NCBI GenBank assembly: GCA_009869945.1
Contig: WIXG01000376.1
Location: 1 to 64,000, forward strand
Direction: 5' to 3'
Origin: Mesaphorura yosii
Lineage: Eukaryota; Arthropoda; Collembola; Poduromorpha; Tullbergiidae
DNA length: 64,000 bases
Part shown: one piece after another, positions 1-55,900 of the stretch
Layout: every line of letters starts with the position of its first letter
How positions within the stretch are numbered: position 1 is the stretch's first letter
The notes under the pieces: model-generated
Told to the model about the DNA's origin: nothing
Seen by the model: the letters and a program-made list of their open reading frames with translations, nothing else
Databases searched by the model: none
Made by a program: the position numbers and the translations under genes

Positions 1-3000
1 GGAGAGGAGCTTCTCCGACACCTAAGCAAACAAACAAATCAGTTAAGGTCGACCGGAAGAGAAGCCGGGTTCGGTTATTTGCTTGTGCACGTACGAGGTT
101 CTTTGCGATTTCTTGGGGGACCATGTCCTCGCAGTCAAACTTGAAGGTAACAGTCTTTTGCTTGCCAGTCTCCAACTGACACTCGGCGGTGGTTCCGCTC
201 ACACTCAGCAGAGTAAGTTTGGGGCCCCGGTCAGTCGTTCGTCGTCTTTTGCTAAGCTTCTTTCGCTCAGGCCGGACTTCCGCTTGGCTCCCATCCACTC
301 CGGTGTCAGATGCAACGCTGTAAAAAGTGAATTATGGACAATCAAGCACGGTACGAGAAATTGTGTTGGCAGTCTCACCTGTCCGGATGCAGAGCTCCGT
401 CTTCACCGAGCACGTGCTCTCCGATCGTGCACGGAGCCGAGTGCGGGAAATCAAGACCAACTGGTCTGTTTTGGTCGAGATGTTGGCGCAACTTCTGAGC
501 ACTTCCGATGTCAATCTAAAACCAAAATTCGAAATGTAAGCATGTGGAACTTGCTGATGAGATGCCTGCTTGAAATTGTAACGTACTTGTAGCTTTGGCG
601 ATTTTTGTCTGACATGACGCGACGTAGCATTATTTTTCGTGCTAGCCTCCGCCGTGCTGCTCTGCGTTGTCGTCGAACTGGCTCTCTCGTTGGTGTCGGC
701 GGTATGCGACAGACCATCAATGCTTGAACGACTTTGCGGTTGATTCGGATCCTCCGCCGAGGGATTCTTACTCTCTGGGCCAGGCTCGGGTTGGGTGGTC
801 TGGGCAGTGCGGGAGTACGCCTATAAAGTATTCACGCATTCATTAAACTCAGACAGAGCTGAAAGACGGCGAGGGAAGACGTGCCTGTTGTGGCATCACA
901 ACGACCGGAGAGGCATGAATCAACTGCGGCGGCGTCGCTTGCACGAAGAATTGAGGACTCGCTGGAAACGTTGCGTAGGGTGCGCTCAGATTTCCGTAAT
1001 AATTGTTTGAGGCCGTGCTGAAGACTGCAGAGCTGGTGGGAGGAACCGTCGAAGCAAGAAACGTTCCTGGGTTGACAGGATACGCCGGAGTCAAGTAGCC
1101 CTGGGAGAAGAACTGCTGCTGGTGCTGCAATAAACAGTCATCTCTCAGTTTGTCTGACTTCGCGTACTGCCTACTCTCCGGCAACACGCTGACCTACCTG
1201 AGGCTGGAGAAATATTTGGCCCTGAATGACGTTTTGGTGTTCGCCGGTGTACGTCACATAGCCCGAATCAAGCCCATGCAACTCTGCGAAAGAGCAAACG
1301 GAAAAACTCAATTTTCTCACAAATTCTGGGGGTCTGCGCACCGTCGCTTATTCGTCATCGTCAGAACTTTTAGAAACTTGCAGGAAGCAAATTCGACTTG
1401 TCACCTAAGCTAATCACCTGAAATGTGGCTGTGCAGCTTGGAGTCATCGGCGCCGATGAGCAAAACATGCCCCTGCTCGTTAAGCATTGACGGCTGTTGG
1501 AACTGACTCTCTTTGTACTTGGCTTCTCTGTCCCGCATTATCGTGGTCATCTGCGACTTTAGCAATTTTGAAACCGCCTTGCTGTCCTCCTCCGTGAGGA
1601 GACCGGATTTCGTCTGGATTAAATTTGAAAGTGTGAATCATTGGCAAGTCAAGAGACAGAAATTCCGCGTTCTTCGTCCTTACCATTTCGTGAGACACGT
1701 CTTCAGCATTGTCGTATTCAATATCAAACTCAAATTGGATGGCTTCGTTCTCCTTGTATTTGGTGCTCCTCTTCTTCGAGTCCAAAATCCGCAGGCGAAA
1801 CTCAATCTGGAACACACAGACCGTGCCAGTAGAGGGGCAGTTGAAATTAAGCAACGGAATTTACTTTTCTGTTGTAGAGGAGAGCGTCGTCCTTGGAAAT
1901 GACCTCCAGCTTGAGGCCAGGGTCCTCAGCAAAGAATTCGTGGTTCAGGAGCGTCTTGACGCTTGGTCGTTCTTCCCTAACCAGACGAATGCACTGGTCA
2001 ATTATTTCCTTTATCTCGGGCTGCTCGATTTTCTCGAAACTGTTTGGCTTAACCCCCTGAAGCAAACAGGAAAAAAAACTTTGGGAATGAAAAGACCAAA
2101 ATAAGAAGCTTCATGAAAGCACTCACGCTGATGACTTTTTTGTAGATTTGGGCTGGACCGCTGCACTCCGAATAGGGATACTCTGAAGTTGCCATTTCTG
2201 CATCACAAAGACATAATCTCAGACAGGGTACTCAGGGATATTATTCTACCAACTGGATACTTATGCTTACCCAACATGCACATCCCGAACGCGTAGACGT
2301 CCACACTCTCGTCGTAGTGCTCTTCGTACCTGCGGGAGGAAAACACGATCTAACGCTTTCCTTCACGAATCAGAGAAATTGAGTACAGTTTGGCCCTTAC
2401 AAGTCTGCTGCCATGAACTCTGGAGTGCCGATGATAGACTTGACGTGTGAGCCTCTTTTAGCAGTGGCCAGACCGAGGTCACCAATTTTCACTGAGCCCG
2501 TCGTGCCGGATATGAAAATGTTGTCGCACTTTAAGTCTCGATGTATGATTGGAGGCACGCGAGAATGCAGAAAGTTCAACCCCTTCAGTATCTGCAGTAG
2601 GAAGTGCCAAATGAAGTTACAAACTCTTAGCACTTTCCAATCTCGGTCGTTGTGTGTACGATTAATTACCTGACGACACCATGACTTTAACACTTTCAAG
2701 TTGACCTTCTTGAAGCGCCGCAAGTACCTACGCACAACCAGAATCAAGGCTTTTAGTTTCACGGTCGTATCACATCTTACGTTCGAAGCACTTGCATTTT
2801 TAAGGTGCCCGAAGTCATTAATTCGGTGACGAGCACGATGCACTTCCTCTTCGGAGTGGCGACTTCCCAGTAGTCATAGAACCGAACGATGTTGGGATGT
2901 TGAAGCCCCTTCAGCATCTCCGCTTCCTCACGAAATCTCTGTCGCTCAGATCGACTCAGCTTCTTGTCCTGAAACAATAAATTATAAAAAAAATTGACTT

Positions 3001-4130
3001 CCTGTCGCGATGGCATTTCCTTCATTAACATGTGAAGAACTCCGTCTAGGCCATAAATGAGTTTACCTGCAGCTCACACCAGGCGACGCTGACTCCAGTT
3101 TGTGTGTCCAAGCCTCGATACACCGTCTTGAAACTGCCCCGACCAATTTCTTCTTCGAATTTAAGGTACCGCCCGTCTGGACTCACGTCAACCGCTTCTT
3201 CCTCGCCTTCCTCTCGCTTGGTCGCTTCGTCAGCGGCAGTGGCCTCCTCCTCCAAATTCGTGCTGGCCGTTGAGACTGCTTCAGGAGCTTTGTTTCCCTC
3301 CTCCATACCAAGACGATGATCAGACGGAGATTCCCCGTCCAAGGCCTTAGCTTGGAGCACTGCTGGGTTGCCGGAAACACTTGGGGCGAGCTGAACGTTG
3401 CCGCTCTCACTGACAGGAGCTTCCAAAGTCACGCCTTCAGAGTGTTCAGAGATGGGTTGAGCAAGTGTTGCGGGGTTCTCAAAATCCGAAAACCTCCGCC
3501 GTAAAGCCAAATCTCTAAGGAGCAATAGAGCAATTTCGTAATTTTTGAAACACCTTGCTGTTTCTTAACTTGTTACATGGTCTTAAATGTAAGTGTCATC
3601 GTATGGGTGGACACGAAAGACGCAACATTTTGCGATTCTCACCTACTGCTCGTGTCAATGCACACTGATGGTCCCACACTTGTTGCATCCGCGTACAGGT
3701 TCGACAAAGGGCCTTCTGACTGCTCCGGCTCCTCTTTCCCACCCGCTTTCAGTCTGTTGGTTGGGGCAGACCTCCTCCTGTTTCTGGAGGTGGTGCCAGG
3801 CTTCAATTGAGATCGGGCTTTTGCCACGGCGGCGGTTGGTTGTATTGGGTCTACCGCCAAACTGCTTGTCGTTGCACTCCCCAACGCACTTGAGGAAGAA
3901 CTCAACTTCATCTCATGCTGAGCCTTTGACGTATCCAAGCTTTGAGCTGACGCTGAGGTGGCCAACTGCTGACCACCCTGAGCCGGTTTGCTGAAATTTT
4001 GCCCGTCGCTCTGGTTCCTCTCCGGTGCGCTCATTTTGTCAGGAGTGTCAGCTGAGGTGCTGGTCTCCACTGCTTCCTTTTGCAAATCAGGTCCCTCAAG
4101 ATGAGGCTCATTCCCAGTGTTTCCGTCCAT
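1..4130 (-). CDS. Wnk: WNK (with-no-lysine) serine/threonine kinase, 3' end beyond window
   Basis: WNK kinases sense chloride and osmotic state and phosphorylate SPAK/OSR1-type kinases that control cation-chloride cotransporters. Exons in transcript order: 4130-3643, 3514-3067, 2968-2781, 2727-2670, 2591-2401, 2329-2271, 2197-2127, 2056-1865, 1806-1684, 1613-1418, about 1153-855, 799-587 (or from 820), 515-379, 317-95, 21-<1. Residues 1-278 are a low-complexity acidic leader. The kinase starts near residue 279 with [11 protein letters not shown], which carries the WNK lysine in the glycine loop. VAWCELQ has Cys where other kinases have the beta-3 Lys. HRDLKCDN and DLGLAT (chloride-site Leu) follow. 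After the kinase come an OSR1-type domain ([13 protein letters not shown]), a Q/P/S-rich tail and a second such domain ([16 protein letters not shown]). ATG 4130 is chosen over an upstream non-ATG extension. The 1418/1153 junction and the 855/799 intron (GTCTGAG donor) are the weakest parts. Confidence 0.9.
2127..3152 (-). other. WNK kinase domain exons
   Basis: This part codes the catalytic core. Two departures from the family are visible. The APE motif at the end of the activation segment reads AAD (2411-2403), giving [13 protein letters not shown]. The hinge/alpha-D stretch reads [15 protein letters not shown], five residues more than the GTLKTYL pattern usual in WNKs, because the strongest donor (GTAAGA at 2780) lies 15 nt beyond the expected boundary. 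All other catalytic landmarks are intact: the glycine-loop Lys, HRD, DLG, and the [13 protein letters not shown] stretch after the activation segment. Confidence 0.85.
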
Positions 4131-5206: not shown

Positions 5207-6998
5207 ATGGAGCCAGAGGAAGCTTCAGAGCGTGTCAGTGATCTTCTTTCCTCGCCTTCGTGTTCGAAGGAGCCGCCGGAGTTGGATGATCCAATCGGTG
5301 CTACATCTCTGGATCTGACGTCGATCGACGACGCTGGACCGTTGTCAAAGGACAAGTCGCAGATCTTCGTTCATGGGTCCGAGACTTCAAGTGGAAGTGA
5401 AAGCACCGTAGCCAAACGTCGGAAGAGAAACAGAAGATGTCACAAGAAGAAGAAGGCTGCTGCTCGATCCCGCAGCGAGTTCGCGCAGGTCGAGGGCCTG
5501 TCTGGCGAAGGCCCAGAGTCTCCCGATGATGACAAACGTCAGAGACCCGATTCCGACCCGAGTCAGGAGGTAATCCACCACGTGCTAACCTGCCACGTGT
5601 TACGCGCAGTTCACAACAGGATGGACATTGGCAGGATGAGGCCTCAATTGAGGAGACTAAAGAGAAAAGTCTCGAAGAAGGGAACCCAGAGTGCCAGGAG
5701 GAGGTGGCTTCGGAAGGGGACGCCCGTCATCAAGCCGAGAAGGAGGAGGCACAGGAGAAGAGCGACGTTGATCCCCTTGCAGGTGATGTTCGAGAGGAGT
5801 CACTCTACCCGAGAGACATAAACAACAACTACATTCAAGAAGGCACCACGGGAAATGCGGACGAGGACGCACCAGACACGTCTGAGCCAGATCCCTCCTC
5901 GGCCGTGAGAGCCCCAAATGGTAACTCCCGGGCCCACGATTCACTGGATGACTGGAAAGAGCAGAACTCGGATGTCGTGCATGAAGCTCGCTCTATTGTA
6001 GACCAAATCATCGCAGTAGTAACGACGAAAGTCCAGGACCTGGAAGCGGAAAGTGGACCAGCGAACTATGAGAACGAGACCCCAGAAGTTGAGCCGTCGC
6101 GTGAAAACATGGCCGCTGATTTCGACTTCACCCACTCGCCAACCACTCTGCCTTCCGACACTGCGCTCCAGCCACAATCAGCAGAGTTCAGCCATGACAG
6201 GGACTCCATTGCTCTGGCGCCGAAGTACAGCCAGGCAAGCGACGTTTCGGCGGCTGAAGCTTTGCATGAGTCGCCAGCTCTTGATTTTCAAGGCCAGAAA
6301 CCAGCTACACCGAACGATTCACCCGACATTGCGCCAGGAGGCGAGTCAATTTGTTTCTCGCAAGGTACATCACAACCCCAAGCTCTCCTTACCGGGAATG
6401 AGACCCGTATTTCAGCTGGCTTCTCACGCCCAACAGGTGAGTCGGAGGGCGAGCTTTCGTCTTGGACCAAGCCACTCAACGAACACATGCTGGACGAAGT
6501 GGCTTCAAAGGAGCTGACAGAGTGCTTGATCTCCCTGGACGAGAAGTTGGGGAACGAGCTGCATTTGTCCGGCACGCCTCCTCAAAGCTGTGCATCGGGA
6601 TCCGAAGAAGCTGTAGCTGACGAAGTTCCGGATCGTGAAGATTCTGCTGGGAAGACGCGGAATGATGCTGAGACTGCTACTTCGAAAGAAGAAGTGGTCG
6701 GGGTGCTGGCTGGGGCGCCAATGTTGGCCTTTTTTCAGAATCAGCAAGTCGGGGCGGCCACCTCCATGGCGTCGACACTCTACTGCACAAAGACCGGTCA
6801 ACTCGCTTCGGAGGATGCTAAAGGTGAGATGAAGTGCCACGCAGACGTCAACCGGAGTCTGACTGACTAGTATTTTCAGAAGGGGCGCCGAGAGGCTTCT
6901 TCGGAAGGCTCTGTCCGAAGAGTATGCGCCGATCACGAGCGTCTTCCAGAGTCAGTACGGCTAAAAATACCGACTCACGAAGAAGTCTAGCAAAGTAA
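5207..6998 (+). CDS. Orphan acidic protein with basic ends and candidate PKA RII-binding helix (561 aa)
   Basis: The product does not match any family I recognise. Exons are 5207-5569, 5620-6823 and 6880-6998. Introns are 50 and 56 nt with GT-AG ends, and phases agree. Residues 1-60 are acidic and Ser-rich. Residues about 69-90 form a strong polybasic block (KRRKRNRRCHKKKK), a possible nuclear signal or acidic-membrane contact. The large middle is disordered and rich in E, D, S, T and P. Residues 244-255 (ARSIVDQIIAVV) fit the amphipathic A-kinase-anchoring pattern. The last exon gives a basic C-terminus (GFFGRLCPKSMRRSRASSR) with several R-x-S type sites. If the last intron is not removed, the frame stops at 6870 and this basic tail is lost. 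Anchoring of protein kinase A is an inference from the helix only. The gene lies tail-to-tail with GRP94. Confidence 0.75.
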
Positions 6999-7278: not shown

Positions 7279-10200
7279 CTACAGCTCATCTCTTTCCGTG
7301 TCCACGCTGTCTCCGGGCTCCTCTGCCTCCGCCTCCTCCTCGGGCGTCGCTTGTGACTCGTCGTCCTCCGCTGCGTCGGGCTCATCTTCATCGATCTACA
7401 ATGAGACGGAAGGAGGGCGTTAGACCTTCTTCCGACCTGCCTGGCGGAGGTTCACAAACATTGCTTTGCTTACTTCTTCGTCGAGCGGAATTCCTAGCGT
7501 CTGTCTCATCATCTTCTCGACGGTGTCGGCGAATTCGGGCGTGTCCTTCAGCATGTAGCCAGAGCGAAGCGTTGCTGTTCTGAACATCATGAGAGCGGTT
7601 TCCTTCGCGACGGGGTCCGCCGCGTCGTCCTTCACCCTCCGGAGCAGCTCCTTCACGAGCGGGTGCCTCGGGTTAACCTCCAGCGTCTTCTTCTGGTTGA
7701 GGTAGTACCTGCCAATAACAAACACGGCTCGTCAGAACACGACCACGACCACTCGGCTTCATTATCTGAATGCCCTCCGCGTCAGCCGAGCGAGTTGCGT
7801 ACTCTCGGTTGATGTCATTAGCCTTTGTATGGGTTTGTGACGTGATGATACGCTCCATGTTTCCTGTCCAGCCGAATCGCGACGTGACGAGCGCACAAGG
7901 ACTCTTGTCAAGCCGCTCACTCAACTCCGCTTTCAGAATCTAAGGACATTTAAAATCGGAATTCACTTACGATTTCCCAATATCGTCTGCTTTTTGATGA
8001 GGGTTGGAAATGGCCATTCTCTCCATGTTGCCCGTCCAAGCATACATTCCAGCAACCAAAGCGCAGGGAGAGTTCGACAGTCGCTCAGAAACCTCAGCCT
8101 TCAGAATCTACAAGCATCCGTCACCACAGAGTTAGGAGAGTCGGAAGTTAATACCGAAAGTTAATAGTCCACAAGAAGCGAGTAGAATATTCCACTTACT
8201 TCTTAGAAATGCTAATTCAAACACTACTGAATTACACAAAAGTTGTGTGTGTCATTACTCATTAGTTAATGTCTTAATCGAAAGGTCCCAACTAAAGAAG
8301 CGGAAAGAGCAGCGTGAAAGAGAGGGGGAAATGGTCACCTGGTCCTTGAGAGCATTTTCAGTCAGCCATTTCGTTAACGGTTCGAAGATGGTTTTGGTCT
8401 CCTCCAACTTCTCCTTGGCCTTTCCTTCCGCGATTGAAAGCCCCTCTTTGGCAACGTTCTGGAACTTCTTGCTCTCGAACTCGGGCAGCGCACCAATGCA
8501 GTACTCGTCCACGGCCTCGGTCAAGTACAGCACCTCGAAGCCTTTCTTCAGCAGCCGCTCCACGAACGGCGACTTCTCCACTTCCTCTCGCGATGAGCCA
8601 GCAATGTAGTAAATCGCCTCCTGCTTGTCCTTCATCCGCGAGACGTAGTCGGTCAACGAAGTCGTTCCTGGGGCCAAGGCGGAGATTCGGATTATCCAGT
8701 CAGGATGGGATGAGTCAACTAGTTCAACTTACCTGTTCCGTGAGAACTGTGGAATCTCAGGAGCTTGGCCAACCGACTCTTGTTGGAGGTGTCTTCGATT
8801 ATTCCTAGCTTGATGTTTGTCGAGTACTCCTTCCAAAACTTTTCATAGTCTTCACCTTCCAGCTTCTTGAGCATGTCAAGCGTCTTCCGAATCAGTTTCT
8901 TCCTGATAACCTGAAGTTCACCAAAATATCTTAGATTTTTTTAATAGACGGCGCTGACTTCACTTTACGAATTTATCATACCTTGATAAGCTTATTTTGT
9001 TGCAGGGTCTCACGCGATACGTTCAACGGCAGGTCGTCAGAGTCCACGACGCCTCGGATGAAGGCCAAGTAGTTTGGCATCATTTCGTGGAAGTCGTCGG
9101 TGATGAAGACTCTTCTCACGTACAGTTTGATGTTGTCAGTTCGCGTTCCGTAGCGATTGAAGCTTTCGGAGGGCTGGACAGCAGGCACAAAAAGAAGAGC
9201 TTTGAAGGTCACTTCGCCCTCCGCGACGAAGTGAGTTTTGGCCAACGGCTTTGTTGTGTCCTTGACGAGGCTTTTGTAGAACTCGTCGTACTCAGAGTCC
9301 TCAACCTCATTCGGCTTCCGTGTCCAAATGGGCTTCGAGTCATTCACGAGCTCCCAATCATAAACCGTCTTCGAAACTTTCTTTGTTTTCGGTTTGTCCT
9401 CGTCTTTGCTTTCTTCAACTTTGGCATCATCATCCTCAATCTCGTCTTCCTTCTTTTCCTCTTCAGCTTCCTCCTCAATTGGAACCTCCTCCTCCACCGT
9501 CTAAGCCAAGTAAGTAAGACCTCGTAACATATCAAATTTACTTATTCAGCAAGCAGGGTGTCAGCTCACCTTTTCGGTCCAGAGATAAATGGGGAAATTG
9601 ATAAACTGTGAATACTTCTTAATGAGATCTCGCACTGTCCTTTCTTCCAAATAATTCTTCGCCTCTGCCTTCATTTGCAAACTAAAAGAAATAGAATTTT
9701 AAACCAAGTAAGTTCCTTTCTTGATTCAGATACCAAAACCAATAAACCAAATTCCCGAGTTTCGTGAGTACACGCAATAAGCAACGACAGAACTCACCTG
9801 ATTTGAGTGCCCCTTTTTAAAGTGTCGCCCCTCGGATCCTCGACCACGGAAAATTGAGCTGCGTCGGATTCCCATATGTACTGACTATCGGAGTTGGACT
9901 TGCTCGTGACAATAACCCGATCAGCCACTGAACACCAGCAACATTAGTGGAGCTTTAATGCAGATAAGAATATGTGGAGGGTAATTACCGAGAAAGGAAG
10001 AGTAGAACCCGACTCCGAACTGTCCAATGAGATCGGTCAACTGCTGGCTGTCGGACGCATCTTGCATCTTCTGAAGGAAGTCCGATGTGCCCGACTTCGC
10101 GATTGTGCCAAGGTTTTTGACAAGTTCTTCCTTGGTCATTCCGATTCCAGTATCCGTCACGCTGAGCAAGTGATTCTCCTTGTCTACTTTAATCCGGATG

Positions 10201-10853
10201 CTGAGTTCGTCAGTCGCATCCAGAACAGACCTCTCCGTCAAAGCCAAAAGCCTCAGCTTGTCAAGAGCGTCGGAGGCGTTAGAAATCAATTCTCTCAAGA
10301 AGATTTCCTTGTTCTTGTAAAGCGAGTTAATGATCAACTTCATCATTCGGTTGACCTCCGCCTAATAAAAGCAGAAGAAAAGGCGTGAATACAGCACGGA
10401 TCAGCGTTCAGTTTGTAGGGTGACAAAATTAAGACTAAGACCTAAATGTTTAAATTGGGACAATTCGAGCTGAAATACCTGAAACTGGAATTTTTCTGCC
10501 TTGTCTCTTAATTCTTTAATTTGTGCAACATTCAACCCATCGATTTTGATGGCTTCTTCCTCCCGTTTAACGACGTCATCGTCAGTCCTCGACCCTTCTC
10601 GGCTGGCTCCTAAATCAGGTTCCACTTTGGGTGTTTCTTCAGTGCCTCCCTCGTCCAAGTCTACGTCCAAGTCGGCAGTAACTCCAGTTGCTAATAAAAG
10701 AAAGACTTTTAGTTCACCAAATACTGTAACACACACTCCACGCTGTCTATCACTGATCATAGTATGATGCTCTCCTAAGATAAGCTGAGTAGTGTTACCT
10801 AGTACCACAAGCAGGATAAATGCACCGACAATCTTAATGCCCATTTTCGACAT
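7279..10853 (-). CDS. Gp93 (Hsp90b1): Endoplasmin / GRP94, ER-resident Hsp90 chaperone
   Basis: ATP-driven chaperone of the ER lumen that folds receptors and secreted proteins. Exons in transcript order: 10853-10799, 10690-10479, 10361-9989, 9927-9798, 9681-9570, 9500-8982, 8910-8733, 8667-8339, then either 8107-7971 or 7939-7803, then 7708-7474 and 7395-7279. All phases agree and the product is 798 aa. A signal peptide ([15 protein letters not shown], cleaved near VTA-DLD) is followed by an acidic stretch. The ATPase domain carries [19 protein letters not shown] and GQFGVGFYS. Next come an acidic charged linker, the middle domain ([21 protein letters not shown]) and the C-terminal dimer domain with NPRHPLV. 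The protein ends in RDEL, an ER-retention signal. Two in-frame ATGs (10853, 10844) both fit. A 67-nt 5' UTR intron (10987-10921) is likely. Confidence 0.97.
7803..7939 (-). other. GRP94 alternative exon B (137 nt)
   Basis: Encodes [35 protein letters not shown] and ANDINRE. It starts in phase 0 after TTAG and ends with two bases of a codon before GTACGC. It is the distal member of a tandem pair with exon A. Both splice in frame to 7708. Length is identical to exon A and about 28 of 46 residues match. Confidence 0.9.
7971..8107 (-). other. GRP94 alternative exon A (137 nt)
   Basis: Encodes [35 protein letters not shown] and ADDIGKS, with acceptor TTGTAG and donor GTAAGT. Only 31 nt (7940-7970) separate it from exon B, too short for a normal intron. 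Joining A to B would also shift frame, because each exon is 45 codons plus 2 nt. A and B should therefore be mutually exclusive. Confidence 0.9.
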
Positions 10854-44384: not shown

Positions 44385-46902
44385 TCACTGCGCGTCGCTG
44401 TCGCTCGTCGTGTCATTCCCGTTTCGCTCTGCAAATTCAAGTCAAGCAGTTAAGTGCTAAGCAGTTTGTAAATAGTTTGTGCAAGAGAGAATTCGAAGCT
44501 CACCCTTTTTGCCCTGGTAGGCATGGCGTCTCAGTCTGTCGTACAGGTCCTCTTTATTCCCGTAAATGCTGGCGTTGGACCTCGCTAAACTGTTCAGCTG
44601 AGCATTTCCAAAGCCATCTACCAATCGAGTTTATGGGTATTAGCCGAGTCATTCGCTGAATGGACGTGTGCACAGCAGCACGGCCTCTTGCCTATTTATT
44701 ACCTTTCATGTAGGATTCGTTGTAGAAGTTTGGCATGTCCCAGCCCTCCTCCTCGTCGTCGTAGTAGTGCGCGTACGTCGAGTGGTGCGAGGGTGCGATG
44801 CTCTCCGCATAGGGCACGTGGCTCGGAGCCCCGTAGTAAAAGTTCACCTGAGAACCTCCCGTCGGGTCCGGAATCGAACCTGCCAACAACTTCTTCGGCT
44901 CCCTGCGCTTTGTACTCCTGAGAATCAACGCCAATAGATTAAAACCACTCCGGAAGCATGCCGTGAGTGAGTTTGTGAGTTGTCTACCTGACACAAATCA
45001 TCCAGACGAGAAGGACGAGGAGAATGATGAAGATGACGCCGCCAGCAATGCCGATGGCTATGTAGGCAAAGTCGGACTTTTCACCGCAGCGTTTGCCGAC
45101 GAAGCTGCCGACGCACTCACAGAAGGGCATGCCTTTCTTGTCCTTGTGGCACGTCCCCTCGTTCTGGCAGAAGCCCTCGCACTGATCCGTGCAGAACTCA
45201 CCCGTCCCGTTGAACCCCGTTTTGCAGATACACGAAAATTCATTCGTCGTCACGTTGTGCAGGCAGCGAGCGTTCGGGTCGCAAAGGCCTCCATTCTTAT
45301 CACACGGATTCGAGCAGTCTTCAAGTTTAGTCTGCAAAGACAGAAAAGAGCACGGTGGAGTGCAGCTGGGACACGGGGAGAAGCAAAGCCGTGACAAGAC
45401 GGACAAAAGCTTACCGCGCCAAACTTGTTGGTGGAAGTGTCCGCGGGGCAGGGCAAGCAAGAAGTCTGCTGGTCCTCTGGTTGATAGGTGCCTTTGTCAC
45501 AAACCTCGCAAGTGCGTGTGGAAGAGTTGAGGTATTTGCCTGCGAGTTATTCAAATTTGAGTAACGACTTCCTGTCTCCAGACTGTGAAAATTCTGGTGA
45601 TTAAACTTAATGAGTTGAACTTGGCTCACCGGCTTTGCAGATTGGCAGCGTGCAGTCGTCGACCGAAGTGGCCCCTGCGACTTCGGTAGTTCGTTCGATG
45701 GGACAGTTGACGCAGGCGGGGTGGAGACCCTGCGTGCGGAACGTTCCGCGTGGACACGGCGTGCACATGCCCTCGGGGCTCAGCTGTTCACCGTTGGGAC
45801 ACTCGTCCCGGCACTCCAGCTCAGAGACCGCGTCCGTCGTGCGCGTCGTCTTGCCGAGTCCACAGAGCTTGCACACAAACTGACCCTCGTCCGGCTGGAA
45901 GGAGCCGTAGCCGCAACTCTTGCACAGCTCCGCGTTCTCGTCAAAGTACTTCCCGGGCGCGCACCGCTGCTTGCACTCCTTCGGCGACTTGGCCCCCAGG
46001 ATCTTGGTCACTCCCGGCTTATCGACGATTGTGGGACAAGCCGTGCACGCAGACTGCCCGATCTGGCTCTGGTAGCTCCCCGCGGGGCATACCTCGCAGG
46101 TCCCGTTCGACGTCTCGAAGTAGGAGCCGGCGGCGCAAGGGACGCACTCGGACCCGCGCACCACCTGGCCAGGCGCACAGGCGTAGTCGGAGACAAGGTC
46201 CAGCGTGGAGGGGTCCGCCGACGTGTTGGGCAGAACGTCGCGCACGTCGAAGGCGTCTTTCTCGAGAATGAGTGCCTGGAGCAGGCGCTGAATGTTGGAC
46301 CGTTCGTTGGTGTTGATGTTGACGACTGGATCGCTCTGGGCCGGGAAGCTGATTGCCACGTCGTACACGTCCTCCGCCTCCGCAGTCTCTCGCTTGGTCT
46401 TCCCGTCCACCGAACGCAAACTCCTCGACTTTTTGTTGCAGTTGATTCCGATGTTGAGGTCCTGACACTCCGAACTGTCCTTCGTCTTGGACGCACAGAA
46501 GCGCCAGTCCTGGTTCAGCTTCGCAATAGCCATCTTGATTCTCTCGCGGAGTACGCCCTGCCCGGCCTCGTTGCAGAGCCCAGACGAGGGGAACTGCAGC
46601 TTGACTTTGAACACCCTCTGTGCAGGCCGAGACGCTGAAACGAAAAGAGCGTTAAATGCTGCTGTGATCAACCTTTGTTGGTGACTTACAAGTGCAGGAG
46701 GGATAGCCGAGAGGCCGGTTGATGTCCTGGCTGGGATGCCAGAATCCCTCCGCTCCACAGGCGTAGAATTTCGCCACCTGCTGCGAGAACTTGAGTCCGG
46801 GTGAACAAGAAATCTCACAGGCCTTGAAATGGCCGCCAGGGCCCCACCCCGTGCACTGTTGTGACCCACCGTCCGGGTCCAGAATCGGTTGGCAGAACTC
46901 GG
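44385..46902 (-). other. Uif juxtamembrane region, membrane span and cytoplasmic tail
   Basis: A sushi module and a second GCC2/GCC3-like block are followed by two EGF modules and a membrane span ([20 protein letters not shown]). The basic stop ([10 protein letters not shown]) leads into a tail of about 120 residues rich in Tyr ([23 protein letters not shown]). The last two exons give the conserved [11 protein letters not shown] and [13 protein letters not shown] motifs and the acidic end. Confidence 0.9.
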
Positions 46903-49900
46903 CTGAAATTAAAATAATCAAGCTTAGTTGCCACTTCCCAGTCACTCCACGCCAATGGAATTCTCTGCTTACCCAGGACGTAGACTTTGAACTGGCAGAC
47001 GGCGTTGTTGCCTGCCTGGTCGTAAGCCACGTAGGCAATGTCGTAGTTACCCCACAGCAGCGTCTGTCCCGGGCGGAAGCCCTGCTTCTCTTCGATCCGT
47101 ACGATGCCGATATTGTCTGAGAAGACGGGCTCGTCCCACGTGACCGTCGCCGAGCCGTTCTTCGTGGTGACCCACATCGGCCCTGGACAGTGCGTGATCT
47201 GTGGCGGCGTCTTGTCCATGAGCATCACGTCGCACCTACTCCCGGACAGCCCCGGGGCGCACACGCGCTCGCCGCACACCGACGGCACGACGCGTTCGAC
47301 TCCGCCGGAGAAGCGGTCGTAGCCGTTCCAGGGTAGCAGGAGACCGTGGTAAATGACCGACTCCGTCTTGCAGCCGCGCACCTGCTTCTGAATCTCTTTC
47401 GTGTGCTCCAGCGCCCGCCCCCACACCTGCACGCGACTCAGACTCCCGATGAAGCCAGAGTCCTGCGGCGCTCGTCCAAACTCCGACGCGGGCGCACCCA
47501 ACGAAATCCAACCGCTGCAGATGAACACAAATACGTCAGAAGACAAAATGACTCGGCAAACCAAACGAAAGTCCTGTCGAACTTACAATCTGGGGACCTC
47601 CTTTCCGAGACCGTACTCGTCTATTTTGCCGGCGATGAGTCCGTCAGTAACGAGAATGAGGGATCCGTTTGCCTTGTCATAGATGAGGGCGACGTGGTGC
47701 CATTGTCCATCGTTGACGGGGGCGTACTCGCGGAAGGAGAGGTAGACTTCCGGGAGGTCGGGGAAGAGCGACACCTGCATGCCTGCGTTGTGGGCTTGGA
47801 TGGCCAGTCGGCGCTCTCGCGTCGATATGGCCGACTTGACAACGTAGTAGTTGAAGAAAGTGCCCGTGTCGTCAAAGTGCGTGAAGCGCACCCAAGCACT
47901 GATCGAGAACCCACTCGTCCTCTCGCTGCTCAGTTCGAAGGGGATTTGCTGCTGGGCGCTCGCAGTGCCCTCTTCGTCCGTGAACACGAGGTCGTAGTCC
48001 ACTTGGATATCTGAAATCAATCATGCATGTTACTAACAATTCAATTCGCGTTCAACAACAGAGTGTCGGTGTCAACTTACTTTTCCTGCAGTCTTCGCCG
48101 GTGAGGTTGAAGGGGCATTTGCAGTAGAAGCCGTCGCTCAGGTCGACGCAGGTGGCCGTGGGCGGGCAGCTGTTGGACTTGCAGTGCGGAATGCTTCGCT
48201 CGCAGTTCTTCCCAGTGAAGCCTGTCAGACACAAATGTTACTGATAATGGAGTTCTTTCATCGTTCCTGCAAATGCTTGGTTTGCTTACCTTCGGCACAG
48301 TGGCACTTGTAGCTCGGTCCATTGTCGACACAGGTGGCGCCGTTCTGGCAGACGCCCTCGAGGCACGCGTCAAACTCATACTGGCAGCCGACGCCAACGT
48401 AATCGACGGGACAGGAGCAGTTGAGGCCCGAGCCGTAGTCGGAGCAAACACCTCTGTTCTGGCACGGCTCCCCGATGCACCTGTTCGGAGCCGTCTCGCA
48501 CTGCTTCCCGTCAGTCCCTGTGAGCACAGATAAAATATAACAATCTCGAATCTCTGGCTACTCGTGCTCTCCTCGTGCGTTTGGAACTCACCCGAGGGGC
48601 AGACGCAAAAGTAGTCCTGGAAGAGGTTGATGCAGGAGGCGTCGTTCTTGCAGGGATTCGAATCGCAGTAGCCCATGTCTAGTTCACAGCGCTTTCCGCT
48701 CCAACCCATCGCACACCGACACACAAAGTCGTTGATTCCGTCAATGCACGTGCCCCCTGAAACCCACAGACATTGTTAATTAACCTGATTACTTGCTGAG
48801 CCATGCACAGAGACTTGTTGGGAGCTCACCGTTCATGCAAGGCGCTGCTTCGCATTCGTCGATGTTCGTCTGCATGGAGCAAGAGAAATTAGTACTGCCT
48901 GGACTGGACTGTCAAATACAAAACAACTCTTACATCGCATGTGAGGCCGCTGAATCCCGGGCGGCATTTGCACTCAAATTTGTTGTCCTTGTCGATGCAC
49001 GCCTCCGTTCCTTCGGGCTACAATGGCGAAGGCAGAATTAGCCAAACAGTCAGACAGGAATGCCAAACACAAACTTACGTTGCATGGATTGCTCAAGCAT
49101 TCGTCGATCTCAGCCTCACATTGCAATCCTACGGCATGACCCATACATTTAACAAAAGTGCCAATGTTATTAATTTTGTCGTACGCCATTAAGCACTTAC
49201 CCACGAAACCTGGTCGACAAGTGCAGGCGAATCCGTTGAACAGATCCGTGCAGCTTCCACCTACGAAAAGACGGCAAGGAGCAGGTGAGATATGAGACTT
49301 AACTTCTTTGACTGTGTTTGAGAGGGTGCTAACCGTTCATGCAGGGTTCGCTCTGGCAGTCGTCGACGCGGTGCTGACAGCGCTTGCCTGTGAACTCGGG
49401 CTCGCAGACACAGCGGAAGTCGCCGACCATGTCGACGCACTCGCCCGAGTTCTCGCAGGGGTTTCTGGCACACTCGTTGATGTTGACGTCACAGTTCTGT
49501 CCGGTCCAGCCCTCCTCACACACACACTCAAAGTCGAAGAGACGGTCGACGCAGATGCCGTGGAAGCAGGGCTCCGACGCGCACAAGTCCACTTTCGTCT
49601 CGCACCGCTTGCCGGTGAAGCCGCGCGGACATGCACAGGAGAAGTCGTTGACGAGGTCGGTGCAGTTGGAGCCAAGCAGACATGGCAGCTCCGCGCAGTC
49701 GTCGATGTTCGACTCGCATAGCGGCCCCTCCCAACCAGGCTGACACTCGCACCTACGAAAGAGTGGACATTTAGATTCTGATCCCGGCTGATGTGACGAG
49801 GCGTGGGTTGCTCACCTGAAGCGTCCTTGGAGGAGCGGGACGCAGGTGGCGCTGTTCTCGCAGGGGTTTCCGCTGGCCGTGCACGGGTTGACGGCCACTG

Positions 49901-52900
49901 AGCAGTCGGAGCCCGTATAGCCCGTCTTGCAGAGGCACGTGTAGTTGCCGATTCCGTTCTCCGTCTTGCACATCGCCTGCTCAGGGCACGTGTCATTCCG
50001 GCAGTTGCCCTGTTGGTCTTGGCAGTTGATGCCCGAGTACCCTGGCGGACAAATGCACCCTGCAAACACAAGAGAGCGTTACGCCAGCCATTTCGCCAGA
50101 TCCACACGAAGCAAAAGGCCAAGTCCACTCACGGTAGCCTTGGGGTTCGTCAAGGCAGGTGGCTTCGTTGTAGCAAGGCTGGCTGTCGCACTCGTTCATG
50201 TCCACCTCGCTTCACACACAAAGAGAACAACAATTACAGCTCTGTTTCGTTTGGTTTTGTTTTTGCTGCTTACCAAACGCGTCCCGTGAATCCCGCAGGA
50301 CAGAAGCACATGGCCTGGTGTCCCTGCACGACGCAGAGACCTCCATTCTGGCAGTAGTCGTCTGAGCACTGGATTTCTCTGCACTCATCCTTCGTGGCCG
50401 TGCCAGGCTTGAGCGTCGTTGCCTCTCCTGGGCACTCCAGACACTTGGTCATTCCTTCCTTAGGCTGGTAGAAGCCCGACGGGCACGGGGCGCAGGGCGC
50501 GAGGCCGGTGGGCGAGTAGGTGCCCGGATTGCACTTGACGCGGCAGTGCTCAGAGCCCGAGGCCGAGGGCTGGTACGTGTACGTGGCTGGTGGGCAGGAA
50601 TGGCACTCCTTGAAGCCGTCTGGTGGGGGTGCGCCGGTGTAGCTGTTGCGCGGGCACTCGAGGCAGGGGACGAGGCCCGTCGGGGAGTAAGTGCCGAAAC
50701 CACAGACGGGGATGCACTCATCCACGCCCTTCGAGCCCCGCTCGCGCGTGTACGTGCCCGGGGGACAGCGAGAGCAGGCGCCCTGTCTGGCTCTGCTCTG
50801 ATAGAAGCCCCTCTGGCAATAGGTGCACTGTTCTTCGCCCTCGATCGCGTACGACCCCGCTGGGCAGTGCAGGCACCGCGGGACGGCCGAGGCCTCCGTG
50901 TTGAGAACTTCTCCGGTGCCGCAGGTGAAGCCCCGGCCGATCTTGGAGGTGAGGGCGCGGAGGGGCGGGCACGAGTTGCCAACCGCAGACACGTTGAGGA
51001 GTGGGCCCAGGACCTGGTGGGCGTGGGGCACCGACAAGTCAAAGATTAGGTTGAGGGTCGAACCGCACAGGTCGTACAGCTGCGTCTGGCGAACCGTGGG
51101 CATCACGTCAAGCACGTAATTAATCTACAAATTGTAGCAGCAAATTAAAGTACAGAACTGGACAGTAAGTGAATGAGTGTATGGTTTGTTGTTTACCTGA
51201 ACGACGTTCTCCTCAATGAGTTGCGGTCTCGTCTCGACGAAGGTGACGTTCATGTTGACGTTGACGGCGGAGCAGCGCTGGCTGAGGACGTGGTTGAGGT
51301 TGGGCTGCGAGCTCCTCAGGAAGTCGGTGTACTGCGAGAGACAGTTGTTGGGCACGGCGCCGTTGGCTCTGTAGCGGACGATGGCGTTCACTTGATACCT
51401 CGCGATTTCGGTGTCCTCCGAGACGCAGTCGGGAATGACGCGGGAGGGCGTCCAGCTCCTGGCCTTGGTCCGGCACTGGAAGGTCTTCATGGGATCGTTG
51501 TCCGTGAAACGGAAGCCATGGTTGCAGGTCGCCATGCAGCGCATCCCCTCCGCGTTGGGTGAGCAGGCCAGCTTCCCATTGGCGGGCGGGTTGAGTTCCC
51601 ACTCGACGCAGGGAGTTGCCTGCACCGACACCTGGAAGTGGCACGACGCTTGGTTCCCGTGCTTGTCCTGACCCACCACCGTCACGTTCTCGAAACCTCC
51701 CACTGGAATGATGGCGCTCTCCGGAATGAAGGCAAGAGTCACCGGGCCCGAGGCGTCGCTCGCGTTGATTCTCCGTCTCGTCTCATTGAAGAAGACTTGG
51801 TAGCTCGACTGCTTGTCAATCAGCTCCACGACGTAGCTCTGCGGGCAGCTTAGCTGCGGCGGAGTGTCGTCCGGCACAGTCACGTTGATGTGACAGATCG
51901 CCACGTTCCCATCAAAGTCGTACGCCAGGTACTCCACAAGAATGTCGTCGAAGATGTGGAAAGGCATTTTGAACCCGGCGGGACGAATTTCCATGCGAGC
52001 CACCATGCCCGAGTTGTCGTGGGCCACGGGCTCGGGGAAGTTGACGGGTTCCAGGCCGTGGGGTCCCTTCTGCACGACGATCGCCTGCTCGGGGCAGTTT
52101 TCGAAGACGGGAGGCTCGTTGTCTACAACAGGAAGAAAATTCAATAGAAATCGACCAGGCATTAATAGCGAACAATGACGGAGAATTGTCACACACCAAC
52201 ACAAATCGGGTATCCCAAATCCCAGCCGAGCTGCGCTTGCTCTTCCGGCTCATCCTCGCAGCCGAGCAACTCGAACTTGAGGCAGGGATTCTCGAGGTAG
52301 TTGACAATTCCTAGAATGACAAAGCGTGCTTGCACAGACTGGGGAAGGGTGATCATCGCCAGTTCTCCGTAGTTTCCTGGGTCCCGAGTGGTCAAGTTGA
52401 AGTTCGGGAAGTAGACGACAAAGTTCTCGTTCTCGTGCTGCTTGTAGAAGAAACGGATCTCAGTAGGTCGTCCCACCACGTCGTTTGTGATGACGCCCTT
52501 GACCAGGATGGCCTTCACCCGGTGGATCTTGCCCAAGTCGACGGTGACATACGTGAAGGCTTCCTGCAGCCCGCACCAGCCAGTCGCTGAGTTCAGCCGG
52601 ATGTTGCGGCCCTCGTAGTTGGAGCGCTCCGATGTCACGTTCACAGCCGAGTCTGGAATCACTCCGGAAGTGAGGCCTAGCGGTTTAATCACTTTGCATT
52701 CCGCGTCACGGACACACGTGATTGGGTACGGGTTGATGGGGATGTAGCCCTTCCGGTTGCACTCAAACATCACTTCGCCTCCCTGAATCCAATGTCAAAG
52801 TTCAAGTTCAAGATGATCGGCACATTTAACCTGTCCTGCACCCAACTCGATTACCTTACCTGCTCGTAAGTCTGGGAAATCTGAACACCGTCTGGTGGTC

Positions 52901-55900
52901 GACTGGGATCCTCGCACACAGGACCTTCTCAGAGAAAAAATTGAAATTAGCACGAGCTACAGAACGCGTCAGAGACGGTTGCAAATACGAACCTTCGCAG
53001 TGAAGATTTCCAAAGTCCCACACGCCGTCTTCTTTGCACCTGCGTCACACAAATACCCACTCAACACTGCTCATCGCACAAGCCTACAAGTCGTGCGACT
53101 CTTTTTTGTCGTCGCGGGACGTACCTGACGATGTTATCGTGTTTGGAGGACTGACCAGCCAGTCTGAACGTATCCTGGCATCCAAAGAAGAATGACGATT
53201 GGTAGAACGTATCCGTGAAGCGTCCGTACTCGGCGCCGGTGGTTTCGACGGGGAAGCCGCAGTCTACCTTGGGACACTCGGGCGCTGCTCCCGAAAGCCA
53301 GTAGTCAGGGAACTCGGGCTTGGGGTCATGCACGCATTGGCGGAAGGGCGCGGTGAGCGACGACCGCAGCGGCCGACCGGCCTGAGAGCACGAGAAGGTT
53401 ACGTTTTGCAGAAAGTCAAGCAGAATCTCGTCGGGGTTCGGTCGATGGACAGTCAGGCCCTCCGCAGGCTCGTCTTGCAGAGGCACGCACTTGGCAGCTG
53501 ATGAAAAACGACATGTATTGAACAGGTGCAGCTCAACTAACTTGCTTGTTTAGGCGCGTGAACTTACGTTGGCATTCTGGAACGGACCCGTTCCATGCTC
53601 CGTTTGAAGTGCACTGCAGAGAGTTGCTGCCAGCGATGATGTAGCCAAAGTTGCACTGGAAGGAGACTCTGTCGCCGAAGTGGTGCTTCTCCTTCGTGGA
53701 GAGGAGCTGCCCGTTCAGGGGCTCGACCAGTTTTGGGCACAGCTTGGGCACGCAGGTCTTGTTGAGACGGTACGAGTCGCCGTCCCGTGTCCCGGTCTCG
53801 CTCTTGTCGATGAAGAATCCCGCCGTGCCGTTCTGCGTGTAAAGGTCGAAGCCCACGTTGCAGGCGCATACGGAGCCGCCCGGGCTGTTAATGCACTTTT
53901 GGTGGCAGCCGCCGTTCTTCACCGCGCACTCGTTGACGTCTACGCACTCGTTGCGGGTGCAGCCCATCAGCTCGAGCTGGAGGCAGGGTGAGTCGACATA
54001 GTCCTGCAGAATGAGGCGCAGGTACCTCGCCTCGATCGGAATCGGCAAGTTGAGTACCGACAAACTCGGCTCCAGAATTCGGAACTCGACGGAGGTGCCG
54101 TCCGGGTTGGCATAGTCCTTGAACACGTCCGTCAGGTCATCCGTGTACTAAGCACCAATAACAGGGTTGAGGCAAGAGAGAACCCCTCAAGTTCAAAATG
54201 TTCACGTTCAAGTTCAAACCTGAATGCGGATTCCTGAGGCGTAGGCCACTCCGTTCAATTTCTGGACGCCCTGGGTTCGGAAGCCGCGGATGACGGTTGG
54301 CGCCTTGAGGTCGATAAGCACCCAGTTCATGCCTTTCCCGTAGAGGGCGCCGCACCAGCCACCGATGCTCCCGAGACGAATGTACTGAAAGAAACAACAC
54401 ATCTTATTCCGTTCCGTCCTACCACGCAAAGAACTGGACCTGGCCTACCTCTTTGGAGAAGTCTTCCTGGGCGGAGGAGACAGTGATGGCCTCGTCGGGA
54501 ATGCCGCCCGCGCTGAGTCCGAGGTCTGAGACAGGCCTACACTCCAGAGATGCCGAGAAGCCCGTCTTGCACTTGCAGTAGAAGGAGCCGGGCAGGTTCA
54601 CGCATGTCGTCGAGGCCAGGTCACACTGTGACGAACCGCACTCGTCAATGTCCTCGCAACTGCAAAGCAAGAAATTAGCTCTCGAGCACTAGAAAAAGGA
54701 AGGTGGGACGTACATCGGAAGCTCCATGAATTCCTGGGCAGCTCCGCACTTGACGATGTTTTGGCCAACAAGGCGGTAGCCTCTGTTGCACTGCACTCGA
54801 GCCTCGTCATCGTAAAAGTAGTCCCTCTCCGTGTCAACAATGAAGCCATTCGGGATGGTAGGCAGCACGTGGCACTGTTTCCCTGCAAGTGAACACCCAT
54901 TTCGAGTTGCTCAGGCTGGCGAAGGGTTCAACATACGTTTGGGATGACTGTCTTACGTGAGCAGGTGGGAGTTTCGCCGGACCAGGTTCCGTTGCTCTGA
55001 CAGAGGAGCACAGGAGGTCCAGTGCGGACGTGCCCCGGGTCGCAGTCGAAGCGCACGATTGTTCCGTAGCTCCTTCCGCCGCCACTCAGCACGACCTGCT
55101 TCACGTTCGGTGTCTCGGGAAGTGCAGGACACTGAGAAGCTGCAGCAGACAACACATCAGCATAGGCGAACGCAGGACTCTTTAACCCACGGAAGCAAAA
55201 CTCTTACCCATGCACGCGGGCAGTTTCTCCCACTTGCCACTGGCCGAGCAGGCGATGACTTCCGTCGCCTTGCCAGAAGGGAATCCGAAGCCTGCGTAGC
55301 ACTGGTACGTCGCCGTTCCGAGGTACGTCACGTTCTCCGCGTCAATCGCGAAACCGTTAGCGATTTGAGGCACGGGTCCGCAGAATACCTCTGCAACAAG
55401 AACCTCGGTATGTCTGTGCTTCTCTGTTGCTCTGTTCTGTTTCGTTGTCACTCACCTTGGCAGTCTGGGATGTAGTCCACCGACCACTGGCCTCCAGGCC
55501 TGCACTCCGTCACTATATGTTGCTGGCCAGTCGCGAACTCGTGGCCCACCGGGCAGGAGAAAGTCACCACCGTCTCGAAGGCAATGTCTCTGCTGCTTGC
55601 GAGAGCACCCTTCCCGGAGGTCAACGGTGGACAGTCTGCAAGTCAATAGACGTCAATCAGAGCGTTTAGATTTTGCCTTCGCACGCAGAGCGTTTAGAGT
55701 TCGTCTTGAGTTTGTGACGCACCGGCGGAGAAGACCGCCTTCCATCCGGTTCGTGCGCGAAGAGAGTCGGTCGTGAACTTGAGCGTCATTTCGCCAGACT
55801 CGGCGGTGAGAGTCAGTTTAGGGACGCTGCGTCCGCTGAAGCCCGCTCCCGGGTGAAGACGCAGGCTGTCGGTGTTGGGGCCGTCGTAAACCTGCATAAC

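Follow-up and report, generated by a model that had tools for sequence, protein, structure and literature searches.

Two tandem exons of the GRP94 gene of Mesaphorura yosii as a probable mutually exclusive pair over the client-binding segment

Does the gene for the endoplasmic reticulum (ER) chaperone GRP94 of Mesaphorura yosii carry one of its exons in two versions, of which each transcript would take a single one, and which part of the protein would then be exchanged? The question arises from a stretch of 64,000 nucleotides (hereafter the window), in which a sequence-only reading had proposed that two tandem exons on the minus strand exclude each other and swap a client-contact segment. We name these copies exon 9A (7971..8107), the upstream and variant one, and exon 9B (7803..7939), the downstream one which carries the canonical GWTGNMERI. 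From their anatomy, reading frames, homology and pattern of selection, which are read directly in the DNA, we consider it quite likely that 9A and 9B constitute a genuine and functional mutually exclusive pair giving two GRP94 isoforms.

The coding span of the gene (7279..10853, minus strand) comprises 11 exon positions with GT-AG introns and ends in the C-terminus ERDEL. Besides the doubling, the gene is intact: the gene model contains exons 1-8, 9A, 9B, 10 and 11, and the A-only and the B-only transcripts encode 798 aa each, both terminating in ERDEL. The N-terminal part has endoplasmin as its top PDB match (E 4e-101), while the C-terminal part matches Pfam HSP90 and, with either exon 9, aligns to endoplasmin chains with E 1e-45 to 8e-48, while no other PDB chain did better than 2.6e-29. 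The N-terminus is hydrophobic by eye and ERDEL stands as the ER retention signal, RDEL being within the known variation of this signal according to an excerpt of PMC1525184. Judged by its sequence, the gene is a GRP94 of the HSP90 family, nearest to endoplasmin. In the neighborhood, a 445-aa open frame on the plus strand (5533-6870) faces GRP94; it is acidic and Ser-rich by eye and has no Pfam match. Part of a protein kinase gene, presumably WNK kinase-like, occupies 2397-3564 of the minus strand, with Pfam Pkinase in 2397-2873 and no Pfam match in 3046-3564.

Among the best candidates listed, the assembly (93.0 Mb, 1127 contigs) encodes a single GRP94 gene, and further Hsp90-family matches are a cytosolic type (contig C58), a match on C32 that we take to be TRAP1-like, and a fragment on C42. 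With the GRP94 query at E <=1e-3, the exon 9 segment is found in one copy in C58, not in C32, and in diverged form in C42; a second copy of a GRP94-like exon 9 segment was not seen in these three at that threshold. The C42 fragment (C42:97491-97685, in L022) is a diverged Hsp90 C-terminal piece in a 127-aa open frame without GW..NMER, and may be a relic or else a derived gene. The assembly also contains arrays of TTAGG, the arthropod telomere repeat (40 exact 25-mer matches, many of them overlapping, against 0 for the reversed control pattern); a search of it for COX1 gave no match.

The two copies have the same anatomy. Each measures 137 nt, starts in phase 0, ends two bases into a codon, has GT-AG borders and joins in frame to position 7708 of exon 10 (7474..7708, minus strand), the common downstream partner; the common upstream partner is exon 8 (8339..8667, minus strand; donor CAG/gtgacc, slash at the exon border). 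Between the copies lies a spacer of 31 nt (7940..7970, minus strand) that holds the 9A donor and the 9B acceptor. The coordinates, lengths and phases of the copies, the spacer and the joining to 7708 agree with what the sequence-only reading had given, both in the DNA and in the gene model. It had also claimed that joining both copies shifts the frame; in the gene model this is confirmed, and skipping both does likewise, with stops following in either case. With the spacer retained (305 nt) the frame is kept, yet two stops come in, TAA where the 9A donor lies and TAG where the 9B acceptor lies. Codon usage scores the coding frame of 9A and 9B about neutral (0.5 and 0.6 bits), and the remaining five frames come out clearly negative; it thus favors the right frame but makes no coding call by itself. 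The intron before 9A (8108..8338, minus strand; 231 nt) is the longest in the model, copy-skipping joins aside, and is a possible place for regulation.

What would prevent a transcript from including both copies? The spacer had been claimed too short to splice, and the reference introns bear this out: among 30 well-supported ones, of which GRP94 provides 8 (61-117 nt) and myosin genes, by inference, 22 (63-371 nt), the shortest has 61 nt, twice the 31-nt spacer. For the myosin set, 71 of 93 myosin matches were entered, with the L064 matches left out, and 35 introns were fitted. We retained the 22 that scored >8 and set aside 12 weaker ones (67-1116 nt); the last fit, of 34 nt, scored -18, was 35 residues off in length and was rejected as a model failure. 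In arthropods, muscle myosin is a classic example of a gene with exclusive exons, as stated in an excerpt of PMC2257972. Here the myosin genes were used solely as an intron source, because the best myosin match is one uninterrupted frame. This match (C369:3292-5373) covers the whole myosin head profile within a single frame of 1862 aa, and the C369 myosin heavy chain is apparently intron-free, unlike insect Mhc with its exclusive exons.

By consensus prediction, the best branch-like adenine for 9B lies 10-17 nt ahead of the exon and thus about 14-21 nt from the 9A donor. As the 9A donor and the predicted 9B branch point are crowded into one 31-nt spacer, the two copies would not be joinable to each other. 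The proposal of a mutually exclusive pair gains support from a spacer half the size of the smallest reference intron, and additionally from the frame, the homology, the equal length, the phase, the splice borders and the pattern of selection on both copies described below. Adjacency, equal length, phase, borders, homology, frame logic and a predicted mechanism against joint inclusion, all of them sequence marks of such a pair, are found at this locus. Three inverted repeats occur in 7600-8360, and an inverted repeat of 9/10 bases (7969-7978 / 8326-8335) sets the 9A donor against the beginning of the intron that follows exon 8. Docking-type RNA pairing was not in excess in the 9A/9B region (8.5 pairs of 10 nt with at least 9 matches vs 9.2 +/- 4.7 in 60 shuffles), and no Rfam match reached the gathering thresholds in the 64-kb window.

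The splice sites of the pair are weak. The donors of 9A (ATC/gtaagt, 2.8 bits) and 9B (AGA/gtacgc, 3.3 bits) are weaker in score than every one of the 30 reference donors; their acceptors reach 3.2 (7th percentile) and 6.7 (20th percentile) respectively. These percentiles are rough, because the weight matrices were made from the very sites that they rank and the 22 myosin sites were chosen by score, which biases against new sites. Weak sites alone are no mark of an alternative exon, since the acceptor of exon 8 is equally low (3rd percentile) and the reference sites were picked by score. The weak donors of 9A and 9B fit regulated exons, and they fit poorly used ones as well.

The latter possibility leads to the first alternative, namely that 9A is a decaying duplicate, an exon-like relic, and that splicing uses 9B alone. 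Its weak donor and low acceptor would agree with such a fate, and so would the residues G653, I661 and Q665, which are the same in 5/5 comparison sequences and in 9B and are altered in 9A. However, the donor of 9B is about equally weak, and 9A retains its length and phase as well as GT-AG borders and branch sequences near the consensus: a branch-like TCCTAAC lies 25 nt upstream of it with a match of 7/7, and two more such sites are found at 41 and 54 nt. We found 28/45 full codons with identical residues (the sequence-only reading had counted about 28 of 46) and 76/137 identical nucleotides (56% DNA identity). The local BLOSUM62 score is 149, whereas 2000 shuffles gave 18.3 +/- 3.7 and never more than 43. 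The window has 1387 stop-free frames of at least 30 aa, and of the 23 same-strand pairs that they form within 2500 bases 9A/9B is the strongest (E 1e-17); one of the remaining 22 is its opposite-strand shadow and 21 fall in a domain-repeat stretch at 45-55 kb. In that stretch, frames with Sushi, HYR, ephrin-receptor-like and EGF-type domains (45607-54147, minus strand), whose neighbors are alike as domain repeats, perhaps belong to one large extracellular protein.

Identities between 9A and 9B by codon position are 29, 33 and 14 of 45 (Fisher p = 4e-5), hence third positions are near random while the protein is kept, and pN is 0.31 against a saturated pS of 0.87. When 9B was mutated without selection down to the observed DNA identity (5000 runs), a mean of 12.4 residues remained shared (maximum 21), 28 or more in 0/5000 runs, and the frame stayed free of stops in just 19% of runs. 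Moreover, mammalian GRP94 (2o1t; we take 2o1t_A to be canine) matches 9A as often as 9B (24/46 each), with 4 sites retained in 9A only and 4 in 9B only. Both copies look to be under purifying selection as protein, and we consider it unlikely that 9A is a relic.

At 8 sites 9A and 9B agree with each other and differ from 2o1t, and this suggests that the duplication is younger than the split from vertebrates, with the reservation that there is one GRP94 outgroup and that gene conversion is possible. In comparison with four other Hsp90 segments 9B is the nearer copy, the 9A:9B copy-specific matches being 2:6, 1:5, 2:5 and 1:7 (p = 0.29, 0.22, 0.45 and 0.07); 3hjc_A (Hsp83-1) is presumably the Leishmania protein. 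A scan for relatives gave one locus in viral contigs and one in prokaryote genome contigs (L020, L021). Both are other Hsp90s, each with one uninterrupted match through the segment and an ordinary GW motif, and no animal GRP94 was found in these two collections in one scan each.

A second alternative takes the pair as an off switch, where the wrong combination yields a stop-containing mRNA that is degraded, so that the exons set the dose of GRP94 instead of giving two proteins. The early stops from double inclusion, double skipping and spacer retention would serve this end. Nevertheless, a second intact and selected coding copy is superfluous for a switch, and the amino-acid constraint on 9A would be left unexplained. 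We hold this reading, taken alone, to be somewhat less probable than a decaying 9A, and it could coexist with the production of two isoforms. Less credible still is a third alternative, in which 9A is the generally used exon and 9B a minor or dead copy. The intact GTAAGT donor of 9A and its better branch-like sequence (7/7, against at most 6/7 for 9B) point that way; on the other side, 9B retains G653, I661 and Q665 like all five comparison sequences and has the higher acceptor score. Finally, an assembly artefact is hardly conceivable: 9A and 9B are not one exon assembled twice, because their DNA is only 56% identical, and each copy runs into its own GT-AG borders.

Returning to the mutually exclusive pair as the preferred reading, which part of the chaperone would be exchanged? 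Aligned to an endoplasmin chain of 846 aa, exon 9 corresponds to residues 631-676; we take this chain to bear the numbering of the gp96 study, as GWSGNMER stands at 653-660 in both. In the excerpt of that study, the client-binding domain of gp96 comprises residues 652-678 and the motif GWxGNMER is described as essential for the interaction with TLR (PMC4868323). Exon 9 spans 25/27 residues of this domain and the whole predicted helix N657-Q668. An Ala mutant of the conserved residues in the first half of the domain and a deletion of 653-660 gave no pull-down of TLR2/4; the same motif mutants kept peptide cross-presentation, and the Ala mutant still bound peptide (PMC4868323, excerpt). Part of another report places the amphipathic helix N657-Q668 in a predicted substrate-binding region, by analogy with cytosolic Hsp90, and this region also has residues outside exon 9 (PMC12527940). 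Client contact is not limited to the exon 9 segment, since the N and M domains of Grp94 are discussed as contacting the client myocilin OLF in an excerpt of PMC6726633.

Within the motif, 9B keeps GWxGNMER (as GWTGNMERI) and 9A reads AWTGNMER, then MAISNP. The helix reads NMERIMKAQAYQ in 2o1t, and each copy carries its own version of these 12 residues. It had been claimed that in Hsp90s this region bears exposed amphipathic and Met-rich residues linked to client binding; the position of exon 9 over the client-binding domain supports the client contact, and as a correction, M662, the canonical second Met of NMERIM, is replaced in both copies, by Ile in 9B and by Ala in 9A. The claim that the copies differ just there was too strong: they differ at 6/12 helix residues against 11/33 elsewhere in the exon, and with a Fisher p = 0.32 the difference is found in the helix yet not confined to it. 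The hydrophobic moment of the helix is 0.35 in 2o1t, 0.33 in 9A and 0.40 in 9B; these being similar, 9A is not plainly a ruined helix, though it has a Pro at position 666.

We propose the following course of events. A tandem exon duplication would have given the homologous 9A and 9B. Splicing would join exon 8 to 9A or to 9B and then to exon 10, and the crowding of signals in the spacer would block the joining of 9A to 9B. An mRNA with both copies, with neither, or with the spacer would meet an early stop and be removed, or its product would be cut short and lack the ER signal. Outside a stretch of 46 residues over the client-binding domain the two isoforms would be identical; 9B would give the canonical and 9A the variant form. 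In the most speculative step, the 9A variant may bind other clients, or the same clients differently; that the swap alters client choice we infer from the position of exon 9. More broadly, one ER Hsp90 gene might exchange its client-binding segment by regulated exon choice, for instance according to tissue, stage or stress, and so yield two chaperones that serve different ranges of clients. Exon choice would then replace gene duplication, from which cytosolic Hsp90 has its paralogs in some animals; we offer this view tentatively and rate it below even chances. If our reading is true, splicing in place of gene duplication can diversify a highly conserved chaperone. Additionally, client recognition by Hsp90-type chaperones is a long-standing question, and an isoform pair identical outside these 46 residues would be a ready-made experiment on what each binds.

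Mutually exclusive exons are already known as a kind. Among the matches listed from the open-licence literature there is no report of them in GRP94, gp93, gp96, endoplasmin or Hsp90; papers that combine the phrase with Hsp90 concern other matters in the parts consulted, and in the excerpt of a GRP94 paper "mutually exclusive" refers to domain contacts (PMC6726633). The homologous exclusive pairs of the Kassiopeia predictions have similar length, frame, borders and homology (PMC3923563, excerpt), and 9A/9B is alike in all of these. In human pairs, according to part of PMC5740500, a donor-to-branch point distance <50 bp counts as potential steric interference; of 629 clusters, 57 (9%) show it, and in 377 (60%) the exon length is not a multiple of three. 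Both traits are present in 9A/9B, the branch point being predicted. The human pairs of the same excerpt were validated by RNA-seq; 9A/9B is a pair predicted from DNA and has an ER Hsp90 as its host. Two further likenesses can be drawn. Exons 2 and 3 of alpha-tropomyosin exclude each other as the donor lies too near the next branch point. They are a steric pair as 9A/9B would be; here the whole spacer has 31 nt and the frame acts as a second safeguard. Honeybee Hsp90 is reportedly regulated through alternative splicing (Aamodt, 2008, going by the title), and the likeness is that of an insect Hsp90-family gene with alternative splicing. GRP94/gp96/endoplasmin itself is akin by the best PDB matches, the HSP90 domain and the xDEL C-terminus; the difference is that residues 631-676 are here an exon in two versions, and that in 9A the first Gly of GWxGNMER is replaced by Ala. 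The gp96 mutant changed all conserved first-half residues together and not this Gly singly (PMC4868323, excerpt).
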